Shown here: positions 2,593 through 17,879 of the stretch, piece by piece
Position numbering within the stretch: position 1 is the first letter of the stretch
Layout: the number at the start of each line of letters is the position of its first letter
DNA from: Acidimicrobiales bacterium
Lineage (GTDB): Bacteria; Actinomycetota; Acidimicrobiia; Acidimicrobiales; SZUA-35
Direction: 5' to 3'
Length of the DNA stretch: 53,803 nucleotides
Assembly: GCA_013003535.1 (NCBI GenBank)
Contig: JABDIY010000030.1
Span: forward strand, 1 to 53,803
Program-made: the position numbers and the translations under genes
The notes under the pieces: generated by a model
Told to the model about the DNA's origin: nothing
What the model saw: the letters and a program-made list of their open reading frames with translations, nothing else
Databases searched by the model: none

Positions 2593-2898
2593 CTACGCCT
2601 TCTTGCGGGGGATGTCGGCGTTCTTGAGGACCGTGCCGTCGGAGGTGATCATCCCGGCCTTCGAGCCGATCGACAATGTGTTCGCGGCGAAGAGGTCTTC
2701 TTTGTTGATGAGGGCCCATCGGTACCCATCGACGTTCTTCTTCAGCCGTTTGAAGGCACCTTTGAAGTCGTTGGCATCGGCAGCCACAACGATCGAACCG
2801 CGGTCGAACACCAAGTCGGCATTCCCGGATGGGTCGGGTGTTGCACCAAGATTCTCGGTGGCGGCGGCGATAAGTTGATCTCGATTGAGACGGGACAT
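2593..2898 (-). CDS. Unknown 101-residue protein at the end of the PTS operon
   Basis: Small, soluble, charged protein with no signal peptide or membrane segment; I do not recognise a family. It begins MSRLNRDQLIAAATENLGAT and has a basic middle (KRLKKN, residues about 49-54) and a basic C-terminus (PRKKA). The start is only 3 bp after the stop of the EIIA-HPr gene, so the two are almost certainly co-transcribed and coupled. The position suggests a role in, or control by, the sugar-alcohol PTS. Codon use looks like that of its neighbours. Confidence 0.7.
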   Translation of the reverse strand: MSRLNRDQLIAAATENLGATPDPSGNADLVFDRGSIVVAADANDFKGAFKRLKKNVDGYRWALINKEDLFAANTLSIGSKAGMITSDGTVLKNADIPRKKA

Positions 2899-2901
2899 TG
2901 G

Positions 2902-3657
2902 TTATGGCTCCTCACTGGTAAGGATCTCGATCACAGAATTCATTGCGACACGGGCAGCGTCGGCGTCTCCCGCCGTCACCGCAACTCGAACCGTATCGCC
3001 AGAGGACGCTCCTAGAGCCAAGACGCTCATGATGCTGGTGGCCTTGGCAGTCTTGGTTCCTTTGGTGATGGTGATCTTGGCATCGGTGGTCTTGGCATAC
3101 TCCACAACTTGTGTGGCTGGTCGGGCATGAAGCCCCGACGGGTTTGTGATCACGACGTCGGTTTCCGGAGCGAGATCGTTGGTCGCGACGTCATCATCAT
3201 CTTCATCATCATCTACTTCTGGTTCACTGAGAGTATTGAACAACAGATCGGCGTCGGTGGTGGTCCACAACGTGCTGCAAAGATCTTCGTCTTGAAGGAC
3301 CTCCGCCATCGTGGAAAGAACCTGGACATGGTCATCTCCATCGGCGGCCAGTCCAATGACGAGATAGGCCGTGCCGGTCCCCCAATCGATTCCCTCGGGG
3401 TATTGGGCCACCACGATGCCGGTGCCTTTGATGAATTCTTTTGCTTCGAAGGTTCCGTGGGGCATGGCTACACCGTTACCGAGGTAGGTGGAAACCGTCT
3501 CCTCGCGCTTCTTCATACCTTCGACATAGCCACCCTCGGCAACCTTCCGCTCGACGAGGCGACCACCCACGAACTCGATCGCTTCGTTCATCGAAACCGA
3601 TGGCAGGCCGAGGTGAACATCGGACTGCGGAAGTACTTCTTTGATCAACGTGGACAT
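2902..3657 (-). CDS. PTS EIIA (mannitol/fructose type) - HPr fusion protein
   Basis: Cytoplasmic phosphocarrier combining two PTS proteins. Residues 1-145 form an EIIA domain of the mannitol/fructose family with the phospho-accepting histidine in AMPHGT (His67). Residues 147-158 are a very acidic linker (EPEVDDDEDDDD). Residues about 166-251 form an HPr domain with the active-site histidine in GLHARPA (His177) and a serine at the position of regulatory HPr Ser46 (Ser208, in TSIM). Phosphate would pass EI to His177 to His67 to EIIB within one polypeptide. The architecture resembles the FruB/FPr proteins (EIIA-HPr) but without their central domain. The gene lies 3 bp after EIIB and 3 bp before the 101-residue unknown. 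Confidence 0.93.
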   Translation of the reverse strand: MSTLIKEVLPQSDVHLGLPSVSMNEAIEFVGGRLVERKVAEGGYVEGMKKREETVSTYLGNGVAMPHGTFEAKEFIKGTGIVVAQYPEGIDWGTGTAYLVIGLAADGDDHVQVLSTMAEVLQDEDLCSTLWTTTDADLLFNTLSEPEVDDDEDDDDVATNDLAPETDVVITNPSGLHARPATQVVEYAKTTDAKITITKGTKTAKATSIMSVLALGASSGDTVRVAVTAGDADAARVAMNSVIEILTSEEP

Positions 3658-3660
3658 GGT

Positions 3661-3990
3661 CTAGACCTGCGATTCGATCGCTTGGCCGTTCTTCAGCTTG
3701 TCGACGACGCCCTTTACCGCAGGGTCCCCGAAAAACATCATGAAGGGAACGATCGCAGCCGACGGCAGCTTGGCCTTTGCCGTGCTCGCGAGCGACTGAT
3801 GGGTCACGATCACGTCGGCATTATCTGGGATTTGCGAGACTGGCGCATGAATCACGGTGCAATCCAGTTTGGCCTTCTTGACCATTTTCTTCAGCTGGTT
3901 GGCGCCCATCAGGCTGCTGCCCATCCCCGCCTCGCATGCAAAGACAATCAGCTTCACGTCGGCCGCTTCTTTAACTACTCGATCTGTCAT
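3661..3990 (-). CDS. PTS EIIB component, mannitol type
   Basis: A 109-residue stand-alone EIIB that takes phosphate from EIIA and passes it to the sugar alcohol bound by EIIC. The P-loop with the phosphocysteine reads ACEAGMGSS (Cys19), characteristic of the mannitol EIIB family. The ATG is preceded by a purine-rich run (GGGGGGA). The gene is separated from the upstream EIIC gene by 173 bp that contain a strong hairpin, but is only 3 bp from the EIIA-HPr gene. Confidence 0.92.
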   Translation of the reverse strand: MTDRVVKEAADVKLIVFACEAGMGSSLMGANQLKKMVKKAKLDCTVIHAPVSQIPDNADVIVTHQSLASTAKAKLPSAAIVPFMMFFGDPAVKGVVDKLKNGQAIESQV

Positions 3991-4163: not shown

Positions 4164-5327
4164 TCAGGCGACGGGCATGCCCGGGATGTCCGGCATGGCG
4201 CTACCGACATCCAAGTGGTCGATGTCGTCATCCATCTCCTTCACCGGGAACATGCGCAGGAGAATCGTACCGGTTACCAGCGATACCGCTGCGCCAACGG
4301 CTACACCGAGTAACACCCCTACCGCAGCGAAGCCGCCGGGCAAGAATGCGATGTAGGCGAAGATGCTGCCCGGTGACGGAGGTCCGGTGAGTCCGGCGTC
4401 GGTTGCGACGAACACGAGATCGGCGGAGACGCCGCCAGCCCACATTGCGCCGATCATGACCGGGTTCATCAGTACGTACGGGAAGTACACCTCATGGATG
4501 CCGCCAAAGAAGTGCACGATGATGGCGCCTGGGGCGCTGAGCTTGGCAAGACCCTTACCGGCGAGCCAGTACGAGCCGAGCAGGCCAAGACCTGGGCCGG
4601 GGTTGGACTCGAGCATGTAGTAGATCGAGCGACCGTTCTCTTGCACATCGGTGGTACCCAGTGGTGTGAGAATCCCGTGGTTGATGGCGTTGTTGAGGAA
4701 CAGCACCTTGCCAACTTGAATCGGGAAGTCCGCAAGCGGAAGCAGGCCGGCATCGGCGATCCCTTTGATCATGTCGCCGAATGCGTTGGCAATACCGCCC
4801 ATGATGGGGCCAATAACTACATAGCCCAGTAGCACCATGAAGAGACCGGCGATGCCCTGAGAGAAGTTGTTGTACAACATCTCGAACCCTGCGGGAGTGC
4901 GGTCCTCGAGGAACTCATCGATCTTCTTCATTACCCAACCGGCTAGCGGGCCGATGACCATCGCCCCGGCAAACTGGGGCGGAGCGATCGTTGAGGCCTC
5001 TGTTGCTTCACCAAAGGCGTTTTCGGCGATGGTGAATGCTGCTCCACCGATCACACCGAAAACTGCGACGGCGGCAAGCACACCACCACGGTGGCCGTAG
5101 ACCATCTTGCCGCCGGTGTAGGCGACAAGAACGGGCAATAGATACACGATCATGGGACCGACGAGGTCGCCGGTGATTGTGTCCCAATCCCAGTCAAGAC
5201 TGGTCTTGGCCAGCCACCCCGTTGGAATGAATAGGGCGGTGATAAGGCCCCAGGCAATGAATGCGCCGATGTTTGGCACAATCATTCCTGCGAGCCAGCC
5301 ACCTAACTTCTGAATTCTTTGTTGCAT
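4164..5327 (-). CDS. mtlA: PTS EIIC component, mannitol family permease
   Basis: Integral membrane channel of the PTS, 387 residues, only the IIC domain. It shows MtlA hallmarks: GFEMLYNNFSQGI, NNAINHGILTPLG and GIHEVYFPYVLMNP. Start chosen at the ATG giving MQQRIQKLGG, because GGGGAG lies 8 nt upstream (5336-5341) and the family begins here; an in-frame codon 37 residues further upstream lacks these features. EIIB and EIIA are encoded separately downstream, unlike the single-chain E. coli MtlA. Mannitol is the default substrate, but glucitol, arabitol or galactitol are possible given the neighbouring kinase and dehydrogenase. Confidence 0.92.
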   Translation of the reverse strand: MQQRIQKLGGWLAGMIVPNIGAFIAWGLITALFIPTGWLAKTSLDWDWDTITGDLVGPMIVYLLPVLVAYTGGKMVYGHRGGVLAAVAVFGVIGGAAFTIAENAFGEATEASTIAPPQFAGAMVIGPLAGWVMKKIDEFLEDRTPAGFEMLYNNFSQGIAGLFMVLLGYVVIGPIMGGIANAFGDMIKGIADAGLLPLADFPIQVGKVLFLNNAINHGILTPLGTTDVQENGRSIYYMLESNPGPGLGLLGSYWLAGKGLAKLSAPGAIIVHFFGGIHEVYFPYVLMNPVMIGAMWAGGVSADLVFVATDAGLTGPPSPGSIFAYIAFLPGGFAAVGVLLGVAVGAAVSLVTGTILLRMFPVKEMDDDIDHLDVGSAMPDIPGMPVA

Positions 5328-5543
5328 AGAAAAAACTCCCCTCGGTGAATGTTGAGTGAAATCATGACAGATCAATGTGACGATCGACACTCTCAATTGC
5401 GCTCTGGGCTGATATGACAAACTGGAATGTTCACACAAACGTGTCCAAACCCAGCATCTATCAGGGATTTCGTCGAAAACGAGGAGGAGAGTTTTTTAAC
5501 CGGCAATCATGCTCAATTTGGCCAGAAATACCTTCCCTGCGCG
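5328..5543 (-). promoter_or_regulatory. Upstream region of the EIIC gene (candidate promoter/operator)
   Basis: A 216-bp non-coding stretch between the regulator gene and the EIIC start. It contains the EIIC ribosome site (5336-5341), a short imperfect palindrome around ACACaaacGTGT (5433-5444) and CGATCG (5381-5386). It is the natural target for the PRD regulator, but I cannot name a -35/-10 pair with confidence. Confidence 0.4.
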
Positions 5544-7070
5544 TCAGGTCTCGGTTTCGGTTGGTTCGAGCAGCAGTGCATTGACTCGACGAACGTCGGC
5601 TGCGGAAAGAAGTGGGCTCACCACCAGAACCGGAACACCTCTTGTGGGCAACGGAATCGTAGAGATGACCAAATCGAACTCGGTGTCATCCACCTCCGCA
5701 TAGTTACTCGCCGACAAGACCTGCACCAGGGCGAGTTCGGGAAATTCCGCTTGGATGCGAGACACCAGCACCCACACCGTGGCCATGCCACTAGGGCAAA
5801 CGACCAACGCCCGCTTCCGGGGGCGGAGATGCGATCGTTCCATTGCGCCAGACAGATACATGGTGAGGAAACCCACCTCGTCGTCATTGAGGGCTGATCC
5901 GAAGTGTTCCCCCACCTTTGCAGCCAGCTGGCCGGTCACGGCGTAGACATCGGGATAGCGGGCGATTACCTCGGCGAGGAGCGGGTTGTGTATCGGTAGC
6001 CCATGCCGGAGGCGGACGCCGAGTCGCCCTAGATGCAGTGCCAGGTTGGTCCGTAGTTCTGCATCGTCGGCCAAACTCGGATGGAGCCGCTGGCCTGCTT
6101 CGTCCAAGAAACGATCCAACACGACCGAGATGCCCAAGGGCTCGTGTTTGACGAGCGACAACGCATCGAGGCCAAGGAGATACTCGGTTATTCCGGCCAT
6201 TTCCTCGGCGGGGAGCTCGACGCCCCTCGTGGCGAGCACCTCCATGAGTCTGCGAACTGTTTCTGACGCAGGGTGGTCCATGAGTGAAACTTGCTGGCCG
6301 GCGTCGAGGCTTATCTCCCTACCGGCTTGGGACCGGACCGCGGAGACAGCGAGGTAGAGCGCAAAGACCATTTCAGCGTTCCCATCCAACGCACCGTCGC
6401 GCAGTTCGACCGAGCGAAGGGCCTGCGAACACTCCCGGAGAGGTAACGATGCCAAGCGCTCCCGGAGGCCTTCTGGCACCCGCGTGCGAATGAGCTGAGC
6501 ATCGGAGAATTGGAAGTTCGTGAGTTCCTCCAAGGCGTCACGCGGGACCGCCTCGAGGAACAACTGGACCGTGGCTCGACGAATCTGACGTTCGCTGCCT
6601 GTGACCACGATACCTTTGCCGGGTTTGCGTACCAGCGGGAGGCCGTTGCGCTCCAGCCATGGTTCGCAGCGATGCAGGTCTCGGCGAGCTGAAGTCTTGG
6701 AAACTTCGAGCTGAAGGTTTAGTTCATCCAGGGAGACGATCTTCGGCGCAGCCCACAGCAGCGCCGCAACGAGCAAGTATTCACGCTCCGCGGGCGTATA
6801 GACCCTGGGTGCCTCCATCCGATCAGCCAGATTCTCACGAATGCGTTGCCTCGTGTCGTCATCGGCGGTCACAACCAGTCCCAATCCCCGCCGGCGGGTC
6901 AGAGAGGCCCCCTCGGCTTCCAGAAACTTCTCGGCCGTGGCGAGGCGGTAGCGGATGACCCTTTCGCTTAGTCCAAGATCGCTCGCCATCTCGGCGGTGC
7001 TGCGCGGCCGGTCCTGATCGATCAGCCATCGAGTCATTCTGATTACCCGGCTGTCCAGAATCGAAGTCAC
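5544..7070 (-). CDS. PRD-domain transcriptional regulator, MtlR-like
   Basis: A 508-residue PTS-controlled activator. Order: HTH (about residues 8-50), second HTH of Mga/HTH_11 type (about 95-160), PRD1 (about 215-310), PRD2 (about 320-415) and a galactitol-type EIIB-like domain with its cysteine in VVCPSGMA (Cys425). The family's C-terminal EIIA-like domain is absent, so it is shorter than typical MtlR (about 690 residues). His346 in PRD2 (LALHL) is kept. Tyr stands at two places where PRDs usually carry His (Tyr239 in PRD1, Tyr405 in PRD2), by my alignment from memory. It starts with GTG, 15 bp after ptsI, and probably regulates the EIIC operon just downstream. Confidence 0.88.
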   Translation of the reverse strand: MTSILDSRVIRMTRWLIDQDRPRSTAEMASDLGLSERVIRYRLATAEKFLEAEGASLTRRRGLGLVVTADDDTRQRIRENLADRMEAPRVYTPAEREYLLVAALLWAAPKIVSLDELNLQLEVSKTSARRDLHRCEPWLERNGLPLVRKPGKGIVVTGSERQIRRATVQLFLEAVPRDALEELTNFQFSDAQLIRTRVPEGLRERLASLPLRECSQALRSVELRDGALDGNAEMVFALYLAVSAVRSQAGREISLDAGQQVSLMDHPASETVRRLMEVLATRGVELPAEEMAGITEYLLGLDALSLVKHEPLGISVVLDRFLDEAGQRLHPSLADDAELRTNLALHLGRLGVRLRHGLPIHNPLLAEVIARYPDVYAVTGQLAAKVGEHFGSALNDDEVGFLTMYLSGAMERSHLRPRKRALVVCPSGMATVWVLVSRIQAEFPELALVQVLSASNYAEVDDTEFDLVISTIPLPTRGVPVLVVSPLLSAADVRRVNALLLEPTETET

Positions 7071-7085
7071 AAGACCGGCCCCATG

Positions 7086-8765
7086 TCAGGATCGGTAGTT
7101 GAGCATTCGCACCGCTGGCGCGTCGGCGGCAGAGAGGGCCTGTTCTTGGATCTCGGCCATCATCTCGGGGTCCAACTGATCGATCACTGCCTTGATGCCA
7201 TTGACCGACGGCGCGGAGACCGACAGCTTGGTGATCCCCATTTCCATGAACAGCGCTGCCGCCAGCGGATCGGCGGCAGCTTCTCCACACACCGATACGG
7301 GACAGCCATTTCGAAGTCCCGCTTTGGCAGTCATTTGGCAAAGCGCAAGTACAGCGGGATGGACGGGATCATGGAGGTACTCCAAGGTGCCACTCATCCG
7401 GTCAGCGGCCATCGCGTATTGCGTGAGGTCGTTGGTCCCGATCGAAAAGAAGTCGGCGTGCTGAGCCAAGGCATCGGCGGTAAGGGCCGCCGACGGCACT
7501 TCAATCATCACACCGAGCTTGAGATCGCCGACTGGAGTTGAAGATGCGGCCAACTCATCCCTTGCCAACGAGAGCTGTTCTTTGACTTCCACCAACTCCG
7601 AAGTGGTTGCCACCATCGGGATCATCACCCAGAGTTCACCGGCCACCGCAGCTCGAAGGAGGGCCCGCAGTTGGGTTCGGAAGAGTTCGGGCTCGTTTCG
7701 GTACAGGCGAACGCCGCGCACCCCCAGAAACGGGTTTTCCTCCTCGTCGACTTCCAGAAAGTCCGCAGGCTTATCGCCACCGATATCGAATGTCCGAATC
7801 ACGACCGGGTCGGAGAACGAGCTGAGAGCGGTGGTGTAGACCTCTACCTGCTCGTCCTCGCTGGGCGGGGCGGGACGATCCATAAACAAGAACTCGGTAC
7901 GCATCAGCCCCACGCCGTCAGCGTTTTGTGCGACGGCTCGTTCGACGTCGTCGAGATTGGCCACGTTGGCGCTCACCCGCACCGGAGCGTCCCGATACGA
8001 GACTCGCTTGCCTTTGAATTTTTGGGCGGCCTCATGAGCTGCAGCTTCGGCCGCAGCTCTCGTTTCCAGTTCCTCCCGCATCGTGTCGTCGAGATCAACG
8101 AACAACTCTCCGGTCGAACCGTCGATGCCACCGATCTCCCCCGACTGCACCTGCGTCAGAAGGTCGGGAATGCCAACCACGGCGGGTACTCCGATCGATC
8201 GTGCGATGATCGCCACGTGACTTGTAGGTCCGCCTTCTACTGTGGCGAAGCCAACAACCAGATTGGGGTCAAGCGTCGCTGTCTCGGCTGCAGTGATTTG
8301 GGCGGCGCAGAGAATACTGGGTTCGGTAATGGAGAGGCCCTTGCTAAGAGGAAGGCCGGCAAGGTGACGGCGAAGCCGATCGGTGACTTCGCCAACGTCA
8401 GCTGCTCGTGCCGCAAGATAGGGGTCGGGCAGGGACGCCAACATCGCCTGGAGCTCGGTGGCCGCGTTCTGCAGAGCAGTGTCGAAATTTTCGCCGTCGT
8501 CAAGGTGTTCTTCTACAGCGTCAGCGATCATCGAGTCTTCCGCCATGAGCGCTTGGGCGTTCAAGACTTCGGCGGCATCTTTGCGGCCCCGTTCGGCAGC
8601 TTCAGCACTTAGGTTCGAGAGATGGGCAGATACCGCTGAGCCCGCCGCCACCAGAGCTCCCGCAGGGTCATCCATATTCGGGACCACGACGGTCTCTTCT
8701 TCGATGACGATGATTGGCGCCACCGCAACACCTTTGGATGCTGCAACTCCCTGAATTCTTCGCAT
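7086..8765 (-). CDS. ptsI: PTS Enzyme I (phosphoenolpyruvate-protein phosphotransferase)
   Basis: Cytoplasmic enzyme that transfers phosphate from phosphoenolpyruvate to HPr. The length (559 residues) is typical. The phospho-histidine lies in GGPTSHVAIIAR (His183), the substrate-binding PEP-utilising barrel shows GVGLMRTEFLF and FSIGTNDLTQY, and the catalytic cysteine is in VSVCGEA (Cys493). A strong ribosome site (AAAGGAG) lies 7 nt before the ATG. It is 12 bp after the membrane-protein gene and 15 bp before the regulator, so it belongs to the operon. Having EI within a substrate-specific locus suggests a dedicated or the only PTS of this organism. Confidence 0.96.
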   Translation of the reverse strand: MRRIQGVAASKGVAVAPIIVIEEETVVVPNMDDPAGALVAAGSAVSAHLSNLSAEAAERGRKDAAEVLNAQALMAEDSMIADAVEEHLDDGENFDTALQNAATELQAMLASLPDPYLAARAADVGEVTDRLRRHLAGLPLSKGLSITEPSILCAAQITAAETATLDPNLVVGFATVEGGPTSHVAIIARSIGVPAVVGIPDLLTQVQSGEIGGIDGSTGELFVDLDDTMREELETRAAAEAAAHEAAQKFKGKRVSYRDAPVRVSANVANLDDVERAVAQNADGVGLMRTEFLFMDRPAPPSEDEQVEVYTTALSSFSDPVVIRTFDIGGDKPADFLEVDEEENPFLGVRGVRLYRNEPELFRTQLRALLRAAVAGELWVMIPMVATTSELVEVKEQLSLARDELAASSTPVGDLKLGVMIEVPSAALTADALAQHADFFSIGTNDLTQYAMAADRMSGTLEYLHDPVHPAVLALCQMTAKAGLRNGCPVSVCGEAAADPLAAALFMEMGITKLSVSAPSVNGIKAVIDQLDPEMMAEIQEQALSAADAPAVRMLNYRS

Positions 8766-8777
8766 TCTTTGTCTCCT

Positions 8778-9497
8778 TTAACGAGGTGCTTTGTCGCGCG
8801 CGATCAAGCGTCCGAGCAAGATCCGGTAGATACGGCCGCCAGCGACGAGCGTGACGCTGGTGGTGAGGGCCAGTCCTACGACGGCCAACGAAACGGTGAA
8901 GACGTTGATGAGGGGTTCGCCATCGTCGCCTTGAATTCCCAACGGGATCGCACCAAGCAAGCTGAAGAATCCAAAGAGGGCAAAGAGGCCGAAGAGGATG
9001 ATCCGACTCCCTTCCCCCAATCGCACGCTGGTACCCAGGGCCTTCATCCCCGATGTCGAGCGCCGATCGGCGATCAGATATCCGTGGAATGCGTAGAGGA
9101 TCACCACGAAGATCGCCGGCGTTGCGAAAAGGTACTGAAACCCGAGAGCGACGGCAGCCCAGAACCAGAACGAACTGACGGCCTGCTGGACAAAGAGTTC
9201 TGGTTTCTCAAACGGGCGCTTCCAGCGAACACGAATACCGTCCCCAGCATCCAGCGCATAGGAGTACCAGGGGTAGGCCGTTGTGCCAGTGAGGATCAGA
9301 CCGCCCGCGAAGGCGAAGCCCCGGACCCACTTGGAATTGTCGTTGAGCTGCGACGCCGGGAGAGCCACGATCAGATAAAACACGGTCAGTGTGACCAGGG
9401 CCGCAGCCGTCAGTGGCACGATGTTTCCAAAGTAACCTTGGACACCCTCCTTGAAAAGAGTGCCGGGGCGAACCGGGAACGGCTCGGGTTTGGTCAC
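8778..9497 (-). CDS. Six-pass membrane protein of unknown function in PTS operon
   Basis: A 239-residue hydrophobic protein with about six membrane segments (near residues 26-48, 57-80, 107-122, 124-142, 164-187 and 195-222). I do not recognise the family; it shows no transporter or enzyme motif. The GTG start overlaps the stop of the upstream kinase gene (GTGA), and the stop is 12 bp before ptsI, so it is firmly embedded in the PTS operon. A role in uptake or sensing of the same substrate is inference from position only. Confidence 0.75.
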   Translation of the reverse strand: MTKPEPFPVRPGTLFKEGVQGYFGNIVPLTAAALVTLTVFYLIVALPASQLNDNSKWVRGFAFAGGLILTGTTAYPWYSYALDAGDGIRVRWKRPFEKPELFVQQAVSSFWFWAAVALGFQYLFATPAIFVVILYAFHGYLIADRRSTSGMKALGTSVRLGEGSRIILFGLFALFGFFSLLGAIPLGIQGDDGEPLINVFTVSLAVVGLALTTSVTLVAGGRIYRILLGRLIARDKAPR

Positions 9498-10444
9498 GTC
9501 ATATCCCGTAGCGCCACGTTCTCGCTGTCGGTCGACGCATCGACTCTGGAGACGGTTACGGCTGCGTAGTCGTGCGGTTCCGGACCGGTCATGAGTGTAG
9601 TGGCACTTCGGACCGTGGCTCGAGCCCAGGCCAAGCCCTCACGAAGCGCCGCTTCGCCGTCTCCTCCGCCCGCCAAAAAACCCGACAGGAGCGCGTCGCC
9701 AGCTCCCACCGTATTTCTGACCTCTGTAGTAGATGCGACCCCGTGAAGCGCACCATCTTGATCTACGAGAACCGCTCCATCGCTACCAAGGCTTACCAGC
9801 ACTGCGGTGATTCCGGCGGATCGCAAATGCTGTGCAGCAGCGATCGCATCGGCCATCGTTTCCACTGTTTTTCCCGTGACCTCGGCTAATTCAGATCGGT
9901 TCGGCTTGAGCAGAGAACACTTCACGCCAACCATTGCCGACAACGGTGGGCCGCTGGTGTCCACCACCAAATTGGCCGTTCCCCCGGCGAGCCGCTCGGC
10001 CAGCCTGGCATAAAAGTCTGCCGGGGCACCGGGAGGAAGGCTCCCGCAGGCGGCGAACCATGAACTGCTCAGGGCGTGCTGCTGAGAGACCTCGAGGAGA
10101 GCTTCAACTTGAGCCTCATTGAGGGGATGTCCGGGTTCGTTGATCTTGGTGGTCCTGCCGTCGGACTCGATGAGACTGATGTTGGTTCGGATGTCGACGC
10201 CGGTGTTGAGTATCTCTGTTGGGACGCCTGCGAGCATGCGAGCGAAGAGTTCGCCGGTTGGACCGCCCGATGGAAAGAGGGCTCGAGCCTCGTGTCCATT
10301 GGCCACCAGCGCTCGAGCCACATTGACACCTTTGCCACCTGCTTCAACCGTCGCCATGGCCGAGCGAATGACCGCGCCAGGAATGAGCGCGTCGATGGCG
10401 ACCGTTCGGTCAATGCTGGGGTTGGGGGTGAGTGTTGTTATCAA
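9494..10444 (-). CDS. fruK: 1-phosphofructokinase family sugar-phosphate kinase (PfkB)
   Basis: Cytoplasmic kinase that phosphorylates a ketohexose phosphate (fructose-1-phosphate or tagatose-6-phosphate in the family) to the bisphosphate. The 316-residue protein begins with the FruK-like ITTLTPNPSIDRTV, has the sugar-binding AGGKGVNVARAL and the PfkB signature with catalytic Asp in NTVGAGDALLSGFL. The start is TTG, supported by the conserved N-terminus and by overlap with the upstream stop (TTGA). It sits between the dehydrogenase and the membrane protein. FruK versus tagatose-6-phosphate kinase (LacC) cannot be separated by eye. Confidence 0.88.
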   Translation of the reverse strand: MITTLTPNPSIDRTVAIDALIPGAVIRSAMATVEAGGKGVNVARALVANGHEARALFPSGGPTGELFARMLAGVPTEILNTGVDIRTNISLIESDGRTTKINEPGHPLNEAQVEALLEVSQQHALSSSWFAACGSLPPGAPADFYARLAERLAGGTANLVVDTSGPPLSAMVGVKCSLLKPNRSELAEVTGKTVETMADAIAAAQHLRSAGITAVLVSLGSDGAVLVDQDGALHGVASTTEVRNTVGAGDALLSGFLAGGGDGEAALREGLAWARATVRSATTLMTGPEPHDYAAVTVSRVDASTDSENVALRDMT

Positions 10445-12198
10445 CTACGGAACTTCTCGAGCAGGAGGTCTTCGGCGGCGTCGGTCCACAGGTGGCCCGG
10501 TGCCATGGCCGCTCCGATGTCGGGGTGTTCCTTTGCGAGGTCCGCCAGGCCGGTGAGCGGTAATCCGGTGAGCTGCGGGAAGATCATGATCTTGCCGGCA
10601 AAGCGTCCCTCGAGCATTGCCTGAACACCATCGCGACCGGCCTCGATACCGCCGACTGCGGCCAGGGATCGATCGGGCGACAGCTTTCCCTCTACCGCTT
10701 TTTGAAGAACCATCGCTTGGTCTTCGATGCTCGACCCGGACGTCCCGGTCAGTTGAGCATTATGCAAGTAGACGTTGCTGAGATTCAAGGGAGCCATGGT
10801 CCCATTGGCGACTCCGGCGAAGAGAACGAGCATACCGTTCTTCCCCATCAGCTCGGCCGCCTCCCCCATCACCGGACCAACGGGCACGGTGACCACAACG
10901 TCATCGGCGCCGTTGCCGTCGGTCATTCGCATCACCAGTTCTTGGAGCGTCTCGGTTGAGGTGCTGGAATTGATCAGCACGAGTTCTTTGCCACGTTCCT
11001 TGGCGAGGTCGGCCAACATGACCCGAGCGACGTCGAGTCGGCCGTCGTCGAGGTCCGATCCGATAATGATGTTTGGACCGTTTTCGCTCTCGATGGCTCG
11101 TTGCATGTGCATCTGACCCATCGGGCCACCCGCTCCGACGAAGACGGTTGTCCCGCCCGGGAGCAGATCGGCCCGATTTCGTGCCTCACCGTATGCAGCC
11201 GCAATATCGGGCCCGGTTGTGCCCACATATGCGGTGTAGTGATAATGCAGTCGACCTACGTCGAGTTGGGGTTTGCCATCCAGCGGGGTGGTTCCCACGA
11301 GATTCATGGTTCCCCGGAAAGCGATCAGCTTGGCGATCTCTTCCATCTGTGACGCCGAACGAGGATCGAGAACCACGATGTCATCGAACCCGGCGCCATT
11401 GGTGAGTTCCTTCGCAAGCGTTTCGTAGCCGTCGGCGGATAGGCCGTTCCTCTCAACGATCTCCGCAGTGGGGTTGTGCCTGGCGATCAGATCTCTGACT
11501 CGGCTCGAAACATCGCTGACGACGATGGTGGATGGAGCTTCCAGGCCGGAGGAGAACTCGTACTCGGTGGTGTCATCGGGTTTTCCGATGATCCACATGA
11601 CTCCGCCAGTGGCCGGGCTGAGGCGACGCCTCTGAGTGTAGGCCGCCTCGACACAGGCCCAGGGCTCGGACAATGCTGCGGCGGCATAACCCACCTCGTT
11701 GCTTACCGGGATCACGTAAGCCCCATCGTCGGCGTCCAGCACCTCGGGCCCGATGAGGTGATATTGAATGAGCCCGCCCGGAATGGTGTACCCGTACGCT
11801 GTGCTCTTGCCGTCCACGTGGATGTCGGGCTGAATCGCCAAGCGCTGACCCTTCTGGTACTTCCCTACCAAATTGGAACCTACGTCTATCACCGTCACGG
11901 ACGCTTCGTGGCCCAGCCGGGTGGGCTCTATCTTCAAATCCCGACCGTAGAGCTTTGGGTGATCGCCGCCCTGTTTCACGAGTTTCACGTCGGAGAAGCA
12001 CAGCCCGACGGCGTCTATCCGTATCAGTAGCTGATCGGGGCCGGGCGTTTGCGTTTCGTCCATGGGCTCGGGGTGACCGTCTCGGCCGACATTTTCCACC
12101 CCCTTCCCGTAGGTGTTCCAGCCAAGATTGGGCTGCGGAAGATCGGTCTTCCCTTCTCGAAATGCGGAAACGGACCAGGTGCTCTGAGGTTGGCTCAC
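10441..12198 (-). CDS. Zn-type MDR dehydrogenase with two tandem Rossmann domains
   Basis: First gene of the PTS operon, 585 residues. Residues about 50-190 form the GroES-like catalytic domain of medium-chain dehydrogenases, with zinc ligands Cys67 (GLCFSD) and His97-Glu98 (LGHEAS). The stretch CFSDVKLVKQGGDHP resembles sorbitol/L-sorbose-1-phosphate dehydrogenases; no structural-zinc cysteine cluster is seen. Two Rossmann domains follow. The first (about 198-330) has a degenerate loop (WIIGKPDD); the second (about 348-480) has an intact GAGGPMG (355-361). Their second halves align (NGAGFDDIVVLDP and NGADDVVVTVP; FRGTMNLVGTT and KNGMLVLFAGV). Normal MDRs have about 340-420 residues and one Rossmann domain. 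Likely role: oxidation of the imported hexitol phosphate. Starts with GTG. Confidence 0.85.
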   Translation of the reverse strand: MSQPQSTWSVSAFREGKTDLPQPNLGWNTYGKGVENVGRDGHPEPMDETQTPGPDQLLIRIDAVGLCFSDVKLVKQGGDHPKLYGRDLKIEPTRLGHEASVTVIDVGSNLVGKYQKGQRLAIQPDIHVDGKSTAYGYTIPGGLIQYHLIGPEVLDADDGAYVIPVSNEVGYAAAALSEPWACVEAAYTQRRRLSPATGGVMWIIGKPDDTTEYEFSSGLEAPSTIVVSDVSSRVRDLIARHNPTAEIVERNGLSADGYETLAKELTNGAGFDDIVVLDPRSASQMEEIAKLIAFRGTMNLVGTTPLDGKPQLDVGRLHYHYTAYVGTTGPDIAAAYGEARNRADLLPGGTTVFVGAGGPMGQMHMQRAIESENGPNIIIGSDLDDGRLDVARVMLADLAKERGKELVLINSSTSTETLQELVMRMTDGNGADDVVVTVPVGPVMGEAAELMGKNGMLVLFAGVANGTMAPLNLSNVYLHNAQLTGTSGSSIEDQAMVLQKAVEGKLSPDRSLAAVGGIEAGRDGVQAMLEGRFAGKIMIFPQLTGLPLTGLADLAKEHPDIGAAMAPGHLWTDAAEDLLLEKFRS

Positions 12199-12233
12199 CC
12201 CACGATTCTTTCAGCCGCACCGCCGTGCCACAA

Positions 12234-12263
12234 GTCACAGATTGACCGAAGACCCTCTGTGAC
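12234..12263 (-). promoter_or_regulatory. Inverted repeat upstream of PTS operon (candidate operator)
   Basis: GTCACAGA (12234-12241) and TCTGTGAC (12256-12263) form a perfect 8-bp inverted repeat with 14 bp between arms, half-sites two helical turns apart. It lies 36-65 bp before the dehydrogenase GTG, where a regulator would overlap the promoter. Confidence 0.45.
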
Positions 12264-12353
12264 AAAACTGTCCTCGTAGACCAAAGTGGCGTTCCAGCAG
12301 TGGGTTACGGGTTTCGCCACACGCGGAGCCTCACCGTGCCGGGGTGGGCGCGG

Positions 12354-12381
12354 TTGTGGGCCGAGAACACTGATCTACGCT
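12354..12381 (+). promoter_or_regulatory. Promoter of PH-like gene (leaderless)
   Basis: TTGTGG (12354-12359), 16-bp spacer, TACGCT (12376-12381), then 6 nt to the ATG at 12388. Confidence 0.5.
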
Positions 12382-12387
12382 TCTCAA

Positions 12388-12798
12388 ATGGAGGATCGAG
12401 CGGTCGATAGAAACGATGTGATAATCGCACGGTTGCCCCGAAAGGGCATCATTCCAACATTCCTTGTGGCCTGCATGGTCTTGGGTCCGGGTCTTCTGAG
12501 CCCCCAGTATGCGTTGGCCTGGTTCACCGGTCTGTTCTGTGTGAGCGTCATTAGCTTCCGAATGTTGCAGCTTCGGCTCGAGGTAACTGACGATGAGGTC
12601 ATTGTTACGAACTTCTTCCGAACGATCGCAGTCCCGCTCTCTGAGGTGATCGTGGAACCGAATCAACCCGAGGTGGGCTACTTGGAACTCCGAGATGCTC
12701 GAGGAGCCACGATTCACGTGGGAGCGGCTCCGAGCTGGGCCGTCAACCTTCAGACACTGCGGCAACGGTTGATCGACGAAATCGCCCGTCACGGATAG
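12388..12798 (+). CDS. Small membrane protein with PH-like domain
   Basis: A 136-residue protein with two adjacent hydrophobic segments (about residues 20-52) and a C-terminal domain of beta-rich character (LRLEVTDDEVIVTNFFRTIAV...), resembling the bacterial PH domain found in actinobacterial two-TM proteins. Start set at the ATG giving MEDRAVDRND because a TACGCT box ends 6 nt upstream; an upstream GTG-type extension would add 34 low-complexity residues. Divergent from the PTS operon. Function unknown. Confidence 0.7.
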   Translation: MEDRAVDRNDVIIARLPRKGIIPTFLVACMVLGPGLLSPQYALAWFTGLFCVSVISFRMLQLRLEVTDDEVIVTNFFRTIAVPLSEVIVEPNQPEVGYLELRDARGATIHVGAAPSWAVNLQTLRQRLIDEIARHG

Positions 12799-12853
12799 TC
12801 AATCCTGTCGCAGATTTTCTCCACCGGAGCGAAATCCTGCCGATAGAAGGTCC

Positions 12854-14575
12854 ATGAGTTTTCGCAGGTGGACCGCGATGCCGTCAGGCGCGCCGCTTTG
12901 GGTGTCCTCTGCCTCCAAGCTACAACATGTGGCGCTGCGGCGATATCACTGGCGGCTTCACCCGGTCTTGGGACTCGTAGCATTCCTTGTCCTGGCACTG
13001 GGACCCCTCGAGGGATCGATCGGGGCGCTCGTAGCAGTAGCGCTCTCGTTTGCCGGCTGCCTTGCGATCATCGGCTTCGTAGGGCAGGGGGAGGCAAGCG
13101 CAACGAGGCTGATTCTCCTGGTACTAGTGGACAGTGTGCTGATTGCCATCCTGGCAGCCCTGTACCCGGAACTGTGGGTTCCGCTGCTGGCACTGCAGGC
13201 GGCCGTAGTCAGCATGGGCTGGTTAGAGTCGGCTCGCGTCACGGCAATCCTCCTCGGAACCGCTGCCATGCTCATGGGAATCGCTGGAGTTCTCGCACAA
13301 CCCGAGCACGGATTGTCGGCGTTTGCGATCTTCCTCGGGCTTTCGGCGTCCGTATCGGTCACTGCCCTTTGGTCAGCGAGCGAGCTTCCGCTGAACGCTT
13401 TTGCCCGGTCGTTGGAGTCGGTTCGAGCCTTGGTGTGGCACGCAAACCTCGACGGAACGGTGAGCGAGGTCATCGGCCCGGTCTCGTGGCTGGTGGGAGT
13501 CTCCGGCGAAGAATTGGTCGGAACCAAGATCGAGGACGTCCTACCTGCGGAGATGCGGTCTGACTGGGAGCATCAGCTCGAAGAATTGCATTCGATCGGT
13601 TACACCAGTTTCGTCCATGAACTCAACACGAAATCAGCTCGCACGGTCCGTACTTCAATGCGACTGGTCAGGGTCGGCGACGAAGAGCCACAGATTCACG
13701 GCGTCACCGTGGACATTTCGAACGACTGGCTTGATGGAGAGGCGCAACGGCGCCAGGCGTCGGTGGTGAAACACATGACCGACGGGTTGTTGATCGTTCG
13801 TTCCGATAACCGACCAGACCCGGTAGTAGACCAGATCAACGAACCGGCAGCTGCGATGTTAGGACTCCCCGAAACCGTCTCCTGGGATGAACTGGAGCGA
13901 AAGCACGCTCAGCTGAGTGAGCGAATCGCCGCCGTCTTGGCGAATCGGATCGAGGATCATTTCGACTACGAGTCAGGAGAGGGGTCAACCACTTGGGCCC
14001 GAGTGCGGGTTTACGCAGTCAGCGAGACCCTCGTGGCCGCTCAGCTCTCCGACATCACCAGCGAACGGGAGGCACAGCAACTCGTGCAACACCAAGCACG
14101 GCACGATCACCTCACCGGCCTGCTGAATGCCGCCGAGTTCCGTCGCCAGTTGGAGACGCGTTTGGGTCAATCCAGCCTGCTCCTGGTGTTTCTCTTGGAC
14201 CTCGACAGCTTCAAGCCCGTCAACGACACCTATGGCCACGCTGCCGGCGATGTCGTACTGAAAAGTGTTGCTCGTCGACTCCGGAACTCACTGAAGTCCG
14301 ACGATTCCCTTGCCCGACTGGGTGGCGATGAGTTCGTGGGATTCGCGGAGGGCCTCACTCTTGCCGAGGATGCGGAGCGTTTCCGACTTCGACTAGAGGC
14401 GGCCTGCGCAGAGCCGGTAGTGGTGAGCCCGGACCTCACCGTTCAGGTCTCGGCATCTGTTGGCTACGTGATTGCCGAAACCACCACAGAGGTAGATGAA
14501 TTGATCGCCGCCGCAGACGCTGCCATGTACGAGCGGAAGCGAGGAAAGAAGCTCCGCAACTCCGTGCCGCTGTAG
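12854..14575 (+). CDS. Membrane PAS-PAS-GGDEF protein (putative diguanylate cyclase)
   Basis: A 573-residue signalling protein making cyclic di-GMP from two GTP. The N-terminal third (about 35-178) holds five or six membrane segments. Two PAS-like domains follow (about 185-290 and 300-405), then a GGDEF domain with the intact active site RLGGDEF (GGDEF at 490-494) and DLDSFKPVNDTYGH. At the inhibitory I-site (RxxD) the sequence is KSDD (481-484), so the Arg is replaced by Lys and product inhibition may be weak. AGAAGG precedes the ATG. No EAL domain is attached. The input signal is unknown. Confidence 0.9.
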   Translation: MSFRRWTAMPSGAPLWVSSASKLQHVALRRYHWRLHPVLGLVAFLVLALGPLEGSIGALVAVALSFAGCLAIIGFVGQGEASATRLILLVLVDSVLIAILAALYPELWVPLLALQAAVVSMGWLESARVTAILLGTAAMLMGIAGVLAQPEHGLSAFAIFLGLSASVSVTALWSASELPLNAFARSLESVRALVWHANLDGTVSEVIGPVSWLVGVSGEELVGTKIEDVLPAEMRSDWEHQLEELHSIGYTSFVHELNTKSARTVRTSMRLVRVGDEEPQIHGVTVDISNDWLDGEAQRRQASVVKHMTDGLLIVRSDNRPDPVVDQINEPAAAMLGLPETVSWDELERKHAQLSERIAAVLANRIEDHFDYESGEGSTTWARVRVYAVSETLVAAQLSDITSEREAQQLVQHQARHDHLTGLLNAAEFRRQLETRLGQSSLLLVFLLDLDSFKPVNDTYGHAAGDVVLKSVARRLRNSLKSDDSLARLGGDEFVGFAEGLTLAEDAERFRLRLEAACAEPVVVSPDLTVQVSASVGYVIAETTTEVDELIAAADAAMYERKRGKKLRNSVPL

Positions 14576-14607
14576 GACCCCGGTTGGGTCGTTTGGTGAA
14601 GATTTGT

Positions 14608-14646
14608 GGAGGGGTGGACCGGCTCCGCCACGCGCTCCACCCCTCC
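14608..14646. terminator. Hairpin between convergent GGDEF and ClC genes
   Basis: Perfect 11-bp inverted repeat GGAGGGGTGGA (14608-14618) and TCCACCCCTCC (14636-14646) with a 17-nt loop, in the 121-bp gap between two converging genes. No T-run follows, but the position fits a bidirectional terminator. Confidence 0.5.
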
Positions 14647-14696
14647 GCTGGTAGTGGTATCAGGTGTCTGGTTTTTGTGCCAGTCTTTCAAGGGCA

Positions 14697-16385
14697 TTAG
14701 TCAAGATCCCTCAGGCCGGTCAGCGAAAGAGCACTCACCACACCGATCGGCATGCCCTCGGCATCGATGACCGCGACCGCCGCCGTGTCGTTGTGATTCA
14801 TCAGTCGAGCGGCATCCATCGCTTGGGAGCCGGAAACGATCGCCGGGATGTCCCTCATCGCATCCCCTACCGTGGCGTCGAGACCATGGTCGTGAAGCGC
14901 TTTGGCGATGTCATGCAAAACCAGAAGGCCTCGGTACTCGGTATCGGCAACCGGCACCGCGGGTGACTCAGGGCTGCCACCGAGCCGATCCACCACTTCC
15001 AAGAGTCCATCGGATGGCGAGAGATACCCGACATTCTCGATGGTGACCCGGTCCACCGGGAGATCCAGCCGCTGCTCGAGGTGCCCCCGTCGCTCCCCCA
15101 CTTGACCGCTGGAAACCGAGTATTCTCCCATCATCGCCTGAGAGACGGCCGTGGCCAGCAACGCCGGAATGACGAACTCGGCTCGACCGGTGGTTTCGGC
15201 CACGAACATCACCGCCGCCAGTGGGGTCCGGTAGCCCGCCCCGAGAACTGCCGCCAAGCCGACCACCGGAAAAAGGCCGACCGTCTGGGAGTCGAACAAC
15301 ATTCCCACCACGCGTCCAAGGAGTAAGCCCTGTACCACCAAGGGCAGGAATACACCGCCGACCCCTCCGGCGGCCAGCGTCGCTGATGTGGCGAGGGCAC
15401 GGAGGGCAAACAACCCGAGCAGCACCCCAATGGAGACAGTGGGATCGAGGACGATTTCGGTGATTTGATCCGCCGCCGGACCCAGAGTTACCGGCATGCT
15501 CACCAACGCATCCGCCGCCAAGACCGCGAGACCGAGGATCGCCGCCACCAACGGCAATCGCACACTCAGTTGAAGGCGCTCCGGCATTTCCTTGGCCTCA
15601 TGGAAGAGCATCGCCAATCCGCGTGCTGCGAGCCCACCGACGATCCCCAAGAAGATCGAACCCATGACCTCATCGGTAATGGAGAATTCTGCGGCCTGGA
15701 TGGGAAGCAGGCGTTCCGAGCCGAGCAGAAAAACAAAGACGAGGTAGGACACCGAGGAGGAAACCAACGCAGGGATCAGTGCATGGCGAGCGATGTCTCG
15801 TCGATAGGGCGCTTCCAAGGCAAACAGTACGCCCGTGGCGGGTGCTCGGAAGATTGCCGAAACGCCGGCGGCGGCGCCCGCGACGAGCAAGATCCGCTGG
15901 CTACTTCGCCGCCCGAGGACCGTTAGTTTTCGGTTGTCCAGCCATTGACCGAGGACGGCACCGGTGTAGACCGATGGACCTTCCATTCCGAGCGCACCAC
16001 CGCCGCCGACCGTGGCCACGGCCGCTGCGAGTTTTGGGCCTAGGCGGAACGGATTCAGCTCGTGCCGTTTATGAAACGCCCCAACGTAAGAATCCGACGT
16101 GGATGAGTCGGTTCGACCCCCGAAATGGAGAACAGTGGCGGCGATTGTCAAGCCGACACCGGGTGCCAACACCATGACGAGAAGTGATCGATCGTCGGCC
16201 AAGAGCCAATGCAGCAAGCCGTCGACGGTGATCCATTCGAGCGTTGCAACCACGAGACCTACCACGGCGCCAAGGGCTCCGTAGATTGCGAAACGGGCCA
16301 CGCCGCTGGCTCCGGTCACCGAGTTTGCTCGCGTCGATGCCCGGGTGTCCTCAAACCCCTCTCGGAAAGACTGCGAAACCGGCAC
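14697..16385 (-). CDS. ClC-family chloride channel/antiporter with CBS domains
   Basis: A 562-residue membrane protein. The ClC core (about residues 30-435) carries the gating glutamate in GMEGPSV (Glu135) and the anion-site GGVGGVFLPL. A cytoplasmic C-terminal CBS pair (about 445-560) probably senses nucleotides. At the place of E. coli ClC Glu203 (the internal proton glutamate, in EE) the sequence reads LEAPYRRD, so Ala replaces it by my alignment; the central Tyr445 position also seems non-aromatic. This leaves open whether it is a coupled exchanger or a channel. GTG start chosen because a TAGGCT box ends 6 nt upstream. Confidence 0.9.
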   Translation of the reverse strand: MPVSQSFREGFEDTRASTRANSVTGASGVARFAIYGALGAVVGLVVATLEWITVDGLLHWLLADDRSLLVMVLAPGVGLTIAATVLHFGGRTDSSTSDSYVGAFHKRHELNPFRLGPKLAAAVATVGGGGALGMEGPSVYTGAVLGQWLDNRKLTVLGRRSSQRILLVAGAAAGVSAIFRAPATGVLFALEAPYRRDIARHALIPALVSSSVSYLVFVFLLGSERLLPIQAAEFSITDEVMGSIFLGIVGGLAARGLAMLFHEAKEMPERLQLSVRLPLVAAILGLAVLAADALVSMPVTLGPAADQITEIVLDPTVSIGVLLGLFALRALATSATLAAGGVGGVFLPLVVQGLLLGRVVGMLFDSQTVGLFPVVGLAAVLGAGYRTPLAAVMFVAETTGRAEFVIPALLATAVSQAMMGEYSVSSGQVGERRGHLEQRLDLPVDRVTIENVGYLSPSDGLLEVVDRLGGSPESPAVPVADTEYRGLLVLHDIAKALHDHGLDATVGDAMRDIPAIVSGSQAMDAARLMNHNDTAAVAVIDAEGMPIGVVSALSLTGLRDLD

Positions 16386-16391
16386 CGGAGG

Positions 16392-16397
16392 AGCCTA
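16392..16397 (-). promoter_or_regulatory. -10 box of ClC gene (leaderless)
   Basis: TAGGCT on the minus strand, 6 nt before the GTG at 16385; it supports the GTG start. Confidence 0.45.
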
Positions 16398-16550
16398 CGC
16401 GTTGCTGCTCTTTGTGTTGGGGCACTCCCCAGACCGGAATCGGGACATTGACCGGCGCGACAGTCTGAGCGCGGGACACGAATACGGTCCGTCCGCCCGA
16501 TGCGGTCTACGATCAAAATTGGATCAATGCCGAGGCCGAGGAGCGAAACA

Positions 16551-17879
16551 ATGTCGGAATTCTTCCAGGGCGTAGGTCCCATTCCCTACGAAGGACCAGG
16601 GTCCGATAATCCTTTGGCATTTCGCTGGTATGACCGAGATCGCGTCGTGTTGGGAAAATCGATGGAGGAGCATCTCCGTTTCGGCGTGTGCTACTGGCAC
16701 TCCTTCGCCTGGGATGGTTCAGACATCTTCGGAGCTGGCACATTCGACCGACCATGGAATCTCCCGATCGGCGATCCGATGGACCGGGCCGCTGCCAAAA
16801 TGGAGATGGCCTTTGAGTTCTTCGAGAAGCTCGGTGCGCCATTTTTTTCCTTTCACGATCGCGACATCGCTCCTGAAGGCGCCACGTTTGCCGAGAGTTG
16901 CAGCAATTTCGATGTGATGGTGGACAAGGCCGAAGCCCACATGGCTCGGACAGGAACGAGATTGCTGTGGGGCACCGCTCAGGCCTTCTATCAGCCCCGC
17001 TACGCCGCCGGCGCCGCAACGAACCCCAACCCATTGGTTTTCGCTCACGCGGCGGCGCAGGTGAAGCATTGTATGGATGCCACGCACAGGCTCAAAGGAG
17101 CAAACTATGTGCTGTGGGGTGGCCGGGAAGGTTATGAAACACTGCTCAACACCGACATGGCCCAAGAACTCGACCAACTGGGTCGGTTCCTCAACATGGT
17201 GGTCCAATACAAACACGACATCGGCTTCGAAGGGACCATTCTGCTGGAGCCAAAACCACAAGAACCCACCAAACACCAATACGACTACGACACCGCCACC
17301 GTGTATGGGTTTCTTCAGCGCTACGGGCTAGAGAACGAGATCAAAGTCAACATCGAGGGGAATCACGCCACGCTGTCCGGCCATGACTTTGCTCACGAGA
17401 TCGCAACTGCGGTTTCATTTGGGATCTTCGGAAGCATCGATGCGAACCGAGGCGACGACCGCCTCGGTTGGGATACCGACCAGTTCCCAAACAGCGTTGA
17501 CCAGATGAGTTTCGCGGTATACGAGATTTTGAAGGGTGGAGGGTTCACCACTGGAGGCTTCATGTTCGACACAAAGCTTCGGCGCCAAAGCCTGGCTCGC
17601 GATGACCTGTTTCACGGACACATCGGTGCGATGGACACGATGGCGCGAGCCTTGCTCGTGGCGGCCGACCTCATCGAAAACAACCAGATCGAAGCGTTTC
17701 GCCGAGAACGATACGCTGCCTGGTCAGGTGAAATGGGGCGAGACATCATGGCCGGCAACCTCAGTCTCGCCGACCTCCATGCTCGGGTACTGGCGGACAA
17801 CATCGATCCCAAGCCGGTGACCGGACGCCAGGAGATGTTGGAAAACCTTCTCAATCGTGCGATCGAGCGAGCCAAATAG
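16551..17879 (+). CDS. xylA: Xylose isomerase (class II)
   Basis: Interconverts D-xylose and D-xylulose in the cytoplasm (also glucose and fructose in many homologues). The 442-residue length fits class II enzymes. Visible motifs are [18 protein letters not shown], catalytic His102 and Asp105 in [20 protein letters not shown], and the metal ligands in [14 protein letters not shown]. Start at the ATG giving MSEFFQGV, with GAGGAG 8 nt upstream; an in-frame upstream start is not needed. No xylulokinase or xylose transporter lies beside it, so it is a single-gene unit divergent from the ClC gene. Confidence 0.96.

Follow-up and report, generated by a model that had tools for sequence, protein, structure and literature searches.

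We analysed a stretch of 53,803 nucleotides from an Acidimicrobiales bacterium (contig JABDIY010000030.1; hereafter the window), whose minus strand encodes at 10441-12198 a medium-chain dehydrogenase/reductase (MDR) with two coenzyme-type domains in tandem. The MDR enzymes are a large, much-studied superfamily that as a rule carries one Rossmann domain per chain. The open reading frame (ORF) starts with GTG at 12198, ends with the stop codon at 10441-10443 and specifies 585 residues, whereas the plus-strand frame over 10441-12198 is interrupted by stops. A first-pass annotation, made from the letters alone, had given the same position and length. The gene and the parts of its product are as follows.

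10441-12198, minus strand: tandem-Rossmann medium-chain dehydrogenase, 585 residues (ORF, Pfam ADH_N and ADH_zinc_N, and an AlphaFold2 (AF2) model)
11629-12132, minus strand: GroES-like catalytic domain, residues 23-190 (Pfam, invariant residues)
11173-11625, minus strand: first Rossmann domain (R1), residues 192-342, without a classical NAD site (fold and profile evidence)
11530-11586, minus strand: helix-free segment of R1, residues 205-223, replacing the glycine-rich loop and the first helix
11242-11247, minus strand: His318-Tyr319 of R1 (83/83 R1 copies, 14/14 single-Rossmann domains, 0/83 R2 copies)
10729-11172, minus strand: second Rossmann domain (R2), residues 343-490, of cofactor-binding type
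11116-11136, minus strand: glycine-rich loop GAGGPMG of R2, residues 355-361
10444-10728, minus strand: C-terminal part of the catalytic domain, residues 491-585 (AF2 model, superposition on PDB structures)

On the whole protein, Pfam places ADH_N (PF08240) at residues 53-129 and ADH_zinc_N (PF00107) over two stretches at E<=10, the best of which (378-498) corresponds to R2; both families score above their cut-offs. Cys67, His97, Glu98 and Glu178 are invariant across 81 aligned proteins, which agrees with the single GroES-like domain with Cys67, His97 and Glu98 proposed earlier. No NCBIfam model reached its cut-off: scyllo-inosose 3-dehydrogenase IolM (NF041097) scored 69.7 bits against a curated 450, and galactitol-1-phosphate 5-dehydrogenase (NF007642) 12 bits against a curated 550. 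The MtlD-type family Mannitol_dh_C (PF08125) was not among the Pfam hits of the protein.

Two successive Rossmann domains had been proposed in the first-pass annotation from motifs paired by eye, and structure prediction, the structural matches of R1 and profile comparison all support them. The profiles of R1 and R2 align with a probability of 96.1% and E 2.8e-9 (hhalign), and this alignment contains all three by-eye pairs ([sequence] with NGADDVVVTVP, TMNLVGTT with MLVLFAGV, AYVGTTG with LTGTSG). BLASTP of R1 against R2 gives E 2e-4, a value for that single comparison, at 21% identity; identity over 148 columns is 23%. The homology of the two domains thus exceeds chance. Scanned alone, R1 matches ADH_zinc_N at E 1.3e-5 (25.6 bits, below the 31.8 cut-off), and 65 of 81 family members have a match to this family in R1 at E<=10. 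Single-Rossmann relatives align twice to the query, once over the GroES domain and R1 and again over R2 and the C-terminus, reusing their one domain; in the relative L009, for example, query residues 48-329 and 348-582 both map onto the same subject domain.

The AF2 models are confident both for the tandem dehydrogenase (81 sequences; pLDDT 93.3, pTM 0.91) and for R1 by itself (pLDDT 93.9, pTM 0.90), and two Rossmann folds are predicted. Sorbitol dehydrogenase 3qe3 can be superposed on a complete MDR unit of the model at Z 27.9 and a root-mean-square deviation (rmsd) of 2.9 over 333 residues, the next rows being tied. In VIA-align the 50 rows shown for R1 are, by title, alcohol dehydrogenases or enzymes akin to them, and it is their coenzyme domain that is aligned; on 1vj0_B, chain residues 178-315, R1 superposes with Z 11.1 and rmsd 3.7 over 131 residues. 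A single fold with an unrelated insert is rejected, since the isolated R1 is itself predicted to adopt the fold of an MDR coenzyme domain. The glycine-rich loop is, as had been read by eye, absent from R1 and present as GAGGPMG in R2, and in the AF2 model R1 also lacks the helix between its first two strands (205-223). Three results on R1 weigh against the explanation proposed below. Its Foldseek matches are modest (best E 6.7e-6, with query-length TM-scores of 0.48-0.59 in the rows shown); its mean entropy is higher than that of R2 (1.48 versus 1.22), so that it is the less conserved copy; and its sequence profile found no alcohol dehydrogenase (ADH) with a credible E-value among PDB sequences (best 5vm2, E 0.57), which implies that R1 has strongly diverged. 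Taken together, the chain is predicted to hold a single GroES-like catalytic domain along with two MDR Rossmann domains in tandem, and is an MDR variant because it has two such domains instead of one.

Comparing the two copies with each other and with relatives that have a single domain revealed what each had lost. The alignment comprised 83 R1, 83 R2 and 14 single-Rossmann domains, the last being those of YggP, two SorE proteins, a Lactiplantibacillus relative, a Photobacterium relative and nine proteins from genomes of the window's phylum. The Met and Gly of the glycine-rich loop have a frequency of 1.00 in R2 and of 0.02 and 0.01 in R1, and Phe-Ala-Gly (460-462) is likewise at 1.00 in R2 and at 0-0.04 in R1. 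The reverse holds for His-Tyr (318-319), which by alignment column is present in 83/83 R1 and 0/83 R2 copies, the latter having mostly Tyr-Leu there; a stricter pattern, which requires in addition the second Gly after His-Tyr, a variable position, finds 64/83 R1 copies. In the 14 single domains all of these residues stand at 1.00 except the Ala (0.86). Asn299 shows the same trend as His-Tyr, with 0.88 in R1 against 0.04 in R2, and Gly199/349, Asp273/433, Gly296/455 and Gly326/485 are common to both copies. A second set of 23 new tandem rows, together with the Deinococcus and G609 rows repeated from the first, behaves in the same way: His-Tyr is found in R1 in 25/25 and in R2 in 0/25, Gly361 in 25/25, Met360 in 23/25 (7/9 divergent rows), and Cys67, His97, Glu98 and Glu178 each in 25/25. 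Sixteen of the new rows are close and may repeat loci of the first set, while seven are divergent at 31-40% identity.

The residues conserved in this family are therefore split between the copies, each having lost what the other keeps. A decaying spare copy would leave the other one complete; R2 is incomplete, which argues that the work is divided between R1 and R2. This loss of opposite features is what is new here. A point against this is that four positions conserved in the single domains are lost from both R1 and R2. In a 40-row tree (14 R1, 14 R2, 12 singles) the R1 domains form one group (support 100/99), as do the R2 domains (91/87) and the singles (84/61), with three long R1 branches; since R1 and R2 each form one group, the Rossmann domain was probably duplicated once, giving the tandem arrangement a single origin.

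The window's own genome matches the tandem dehydrogenase in one place. Matches were found in 25/397 genomes sampled from its order (E<=1e-15), in 11/396 from its phylum (E<=1e-20) and in 23/301 from Chloroflexota, the phylum of Herpetosiphon (E<=1e-30). Two of the phylum-sample matches are tandem (the own genome and G263), and nine have a single Rossmann domain, one of them (L003) cut by a contig end. A scan of a species-genome collection gave at least 561 relatives among at least 596 candidate stretches, and the best 80 of these relatives are referred to below as the 80 loci. Both Rossmann domains are covered in all 80, over 548-606 residues counted from the first residue aligned (in L116 a contig end marks the start), and these further loci rule out a lone chimaera or an assembly artefact. 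By title they belong to Acidimicrobiia, Chloroflexota (Herpetosiphon, Anaerolineae and others), the Desulfobulbales-type genera Desulforhopalus, Desulfogranum and Desulfopila, and one Neomarinimicrobiota metagenome-assembled genome (MAG); two are labelled 'bacterium' and 'Actinomyces sp.'. A plasmid of Deinococcus sp. AJ005 carries a tandem relative at 39% identity. In G609 a tandem relative at 35% (L034 1-3165) lies beside an ORF that by eye resembles a short-chain dehydrogenase/reductase (SDR), and a single-Rossmann MDR of the same group is encoded elsewhere in that genome (L036/L037).

The dehydrogenase gene is followed on the same strand by genes of a mannitol-type phosphotransferase system (PTS).

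9494-10444, minus strand: PfkB-type hexose kinase of the 1-phosphofructokinase group, overlapping the dehydrogenase stop codon (TIGR03168 over cut-off; TIGR03828 269.8 bits against 292)
8778-9497, minus strand: 239-residue membrane-type protein (no Pfam or NCBIfam hit; relatives in 24/80 loci)
7086-8765, minus strand: PTS enzyme I (TIGR01417 over cut-off)
5544-7070, minus strand: PRD/Mga-type (MtlR-like) regulator (family scans)
4164-5327, minus strand: mannitol-type PTS IIC (TIGR00851, the best family, 380.8 bits against a cut-off of 468.4); the start at 5327 was chosen inside ORF 4164-5438
3661-3990, minus strand: PTS IIB (PF02302)
2902-3657, minus strand: PTS IIA fused to HPr (PF00359 and PF00381)
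2593-2898, minus strand: 101-residue protein (no Pfam or NCBIfam hit; relatives in 19/80 loci)

The loci with relatives of the 101- and 239-residue proteins are those that share the window's gene order. Among the 80 loci, some of which are short contigs, a PTS part is present in 70, PfkB in 72, both in 62 and neither in none; by component, IIC occurs in 61, IIB in 63, IIA/HPr in 64 and enzyme I in 65. The usual order in Chloroflexota is regulator-IIC-IIB-IIA-enzyme I-dehydrogenase-PfkB, and the Acidimicrobiia loci have the dehydrogenase and PfkB first. The tandem dehydrogenase is an MDR whose closest relatives with a name, among those found, are the single-Rossmann YggP and SorE; its Rossmann domain is duplicated and functionally divided, and the enzyme is conserved in mannitol-type PTS operons over several phyla. 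The first-pass annotation had called it the least explained enzyme of the locus. This still holds in that no NCBIfam cut-off is reached and no paper on a tandem MDR was found, but not in that the protein belongs to a widespread, operon-conserved family with named relatives. Literature searches for tandem, duplicated or pseudodimer MDRs gave nothing on point in titles and the opening lines of abstracts; what was retrieved on sorbose-1-phosphate reductase held no tandem form, and a described family with known activity was found neither at an NCBIfam cut-off nor among the papers as far as their excerpts go.

Two Desulforhopalus features deserve mention. In L077 the next gene downstream of PfkB encodes a class II fructose-bisphosphate aldolase (577.7 bits against a cut-off of 511). 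The stretch behind PfkB (11695-16661, plus strand) holds this aldolase and, by eye, glyceraldehyde-3-phosphate dehydrogenase, enolase and a gene resembling ADP-glucose pyrophosphorylase, so that the PTS operon is followed by a glycolysis block. Beside the tandem dehydrogenase of the same locus, a 907-residue ORF (6242-8962, plus strand) matches both IIA-HPr and enzyme I and is a probable PTS fusion.

The tandem enzyme is probably a zinc-dependent polyol-phosphate (sugar-alcohol-phosphate) dehydrogenase. Its likely substrate is mannitol-1-phosphate, with fructose-1-phosphate as the product that we favour. The mannitol-type PTS would deliver mannitol-1-phosphate, the tandem enzyme would oxidise the carbon next to the phosphate to give fructose-1-phosphate, and the adjoining 1-phosphofructokinase-type PfkB would convert this to fructose-1,6-bisphosphate. 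SorE reduces the ketone next to the phosphate, turning L-sorbose-1-phosphate into glucitol-6-phosphate, and a SorE-like site and configuration acting on mannitol-1-phosphate would give fructose-1-phosphate. Such a product would explain why the resident kinase is of the 1-phosphofructokinase type. The own genome, 95.8% complete, yielded no Mannitol_dh_C in a search that was positive in 7/14 control genomes. The proposed route from mannitol through mannitol-1-phosphate and fructose-1-phosphate to fructose-1,6-bisphosphate was not encountered in the titles and excerpts that a literature search returned.

It is possible, if doubtful, that the product is instead fructose-6-phosphate, formed from mannitol-1-phosphate as by MtlD, with PfkB acting as a 6-phosphofructokinase. 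The E. coli PTS route yields fructose-6-phosphate, as stated in an excerpt of PMC11519228. The window's PfkB falls below the 1-phosphofructokinase cut-off, and four Herpetosiphon loci show no PfkB, as though their product might need none. Set against this, the own genome has a separate phosphofructokinase, the chemistry of SorE-type enzymes takes place beside the phosphate, and 6/8 PfkBs tested (the window's and seven chosen from the 72 loci) pass the cut-off of 292 of the TIGR03828-type 1-phosphofructokinase model.

Several observations count against the route through fructose-1-phosphate, or limit its reach. Both the window's PfkB (269.8) and that of L039 (239) are below 292, the former bearing directly on the window, and the window's IIC is likewise below its own cut-off. 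PfkB was not seen in 8/80 loci, including all four of Herpetosiphon, which extend 9 kb to each side, and this counts against a need for the kinase in every locus. In the Neomarinimicrobiota MAG (L098, 6343-11648, plus strand) the tandem dehydrogenase and PfkB come after a single-Rossmann MDR and an iron-type alcohol dehydrogenase, with adjoining ABC-type transport genes by eye and no PTS. On the Deinococcus sp. AJ005 plasmid (L128, 11198-15952, plus strand) the tandem dehydrogenase is flanked by an SDR and an FGGY kinase, a GntR regulator being present as well, and this locus is a second context of the tandem family. Because these two contexts differ, phosphorylated mannitol cannot be the substrate everywhere.

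What R1 contributes can be approached from the residues that it alone retains. We put at about even the chance that R1 acts as a pseudo-partner subunit within the chain and supplies residues to a single active site, which R2 and the GroES domain would form, a geometry that we infer. In ordinary MDR dimers the coenzyme domains pack against each other, and in horse liver ADH Met306 and Leu309, which precede the last strand, extend into the substrate pocket of the partner. Compared without gaps to the Gly-Gly that follows the last strand, His318 presumably falls at or beside Leu309 of that enzyme. On its simplest reading, His-Tyr would reach across the dimer interface in the single-domain relatives, because action within the same subunit would have barred its loss from R2. 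R1 would then take the place of the partner subunit's coenzyme domain and lend His318-Tyr319, together with Arg316, which is absent from the single-domain relatives, to the active site built by the GroES domain and R2. The outcome would be a pseudo-dimer, one chain with two coenzyme-type domains and a single active site. Two points count against this reading. Excerpts of PMC9527765 and PMC4028059 name Leu309 and Met306 as substrate-site residues of horse liver ADH, and these sources, as far as they were available, offered only 'substrate site' and nothing on a crossing of the subunit boundary. Direct-coupling analysis for contacts between R1 and R2 was swamped by clade signal (106 sequences, effective 76) and speaks neither for nor against such contacts.

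The first-pass annotation had suggested a regulatory or substrate domain for the first copy. The substrate or partner part of this fits better, because R1 strictly keeps the His318-Tyr319 that R2 has lost. That R1 is an allosteric or regulatory domain, binding another ligand such as a sugar phosphate or nucleotide in a remodelled cleft, seems unlikely to us. It does have its own conserved loop, in which Gly205 is invariant and Asp209 and Tyr213 nearly so, and the helix missing at that loop in the AF2 model leaves space for such a ligand; yet that loop accounts for one of the 17 positions invariant in 191-340, compared with 12 in 270-326, and the His-Tyr lost from R2 sits just before the last strand. 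Slightly less probable still is that R1 is a mere structural spacer or oligomerisation domain whose His-Tyr is kept for folding, as its lost cofactor loop and higher divergence would suggest: if R1 were a redundant spacer, R2 should have retained all the family residues, whereas R2 lacks His-Tyr in 83/83 copies and in 25/25 of the second set. Binding of a dinucleotide by both domains with a hydride shuttled between two cofactors is highly improbable and is rejected on the missing loop (0/83 R1 copies by pattern count) and missing helix after beta-1 in a chain with only one catalytic domain, even though 76% of R1 copies, against 55% of R2 copies, still have the Asp that ends beta-2.

Returning to R1 as a built-in partner, the widest form of the proposal would be that polyol-phosphate dehydrogenases of several phyla absorbed their own dimer partner, that each copy shed the half it did not need, and that this opened a PTS route from mannitol through mannitol-1-phosphate and fructose-1-phosphate to fructose-1,6-bisphosphate that replaces MtlD. 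As a whole this is speculative, and we think it more apt to fail in some part than to hold throughout. A stable tandem form with reciprocal residue loss amounts to a natural complementation experiment: among the residues conserved in the single-domain relatives, it singles out some that may work across a subunit interface. The family may document how a dimer becomes one chain, and it provides a candidate hexitol-phosphate dehydrogenase for the mannitol-type PTS operons of Chloroflexota and Acidimicrobiia.

Among named plasmid records, YggP and SorE rank after the Deinococcus tandem protein as relatives. E. coli YggP, a putative zinc-binding dehydrogenase, is an MDR with the same Cys/His/Glu set, glycine-rich loop, Phe-Ala-Gly and His-Tyr, and it too adjoins a mannitol-type PTS. 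It has 425 residues (22% identity to R1, 30% to R2), and its one Rossmann domain holds both sets of features. SorE is about 45% identical to YggP, matches the tandem enzyme over two separate segments at 25-27% and also has an adjoining PTS, but is about 410 residues long with one Rossmann domain, and its neighbouring PTS is of the mannose/fructose/sorbose family. In both proteins glycine-rich loop, Phe-Ala-Gly and His-Tyr share one domain, whereas in the tandem enzyme they are split over R2 and R1. The neighbours of E. coli yggP are cmtA and cmtB, annotated as parts of a mannitol-specific PTS, and that cluster may act on a hexitol phosphate of this same type. The gene itself (L127 5218-7457, minus strand) follows cmtA and overlaps yggF, encoding fructose 1,6-bisphosphatase.

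The single-Rossmann group of L007, L010 and L037 is at least as close to the tandem enzyme as YggP is (BLAST E 9e-33 for L007 and 1.5e-31 for L037). These proteins align to the GroES domain with R1 and to R2 with the C-terminus and have both His-Tyr and the glycine-rich loop; unlike the tandem enzyme they have one Rossmann domain, and they carry Gly-Asp-Glu where the tandem enzyme and YggP have the zinc-ligand Gly-His-Glu. The solved MDRs (3qe3, 6ie0, 4ej6) superpose over the whole GroES-Rossmann-C unit, but are of about 350 residues with a single Rossmann domain. A further parallel is class II ketol-acid reductoisomerase, in which a domain duplicated within the chain mimics a two-subunit arrangement; there, in contrast, the catalytic domain is unrelated and the duplicated part is a helical knotted domain.

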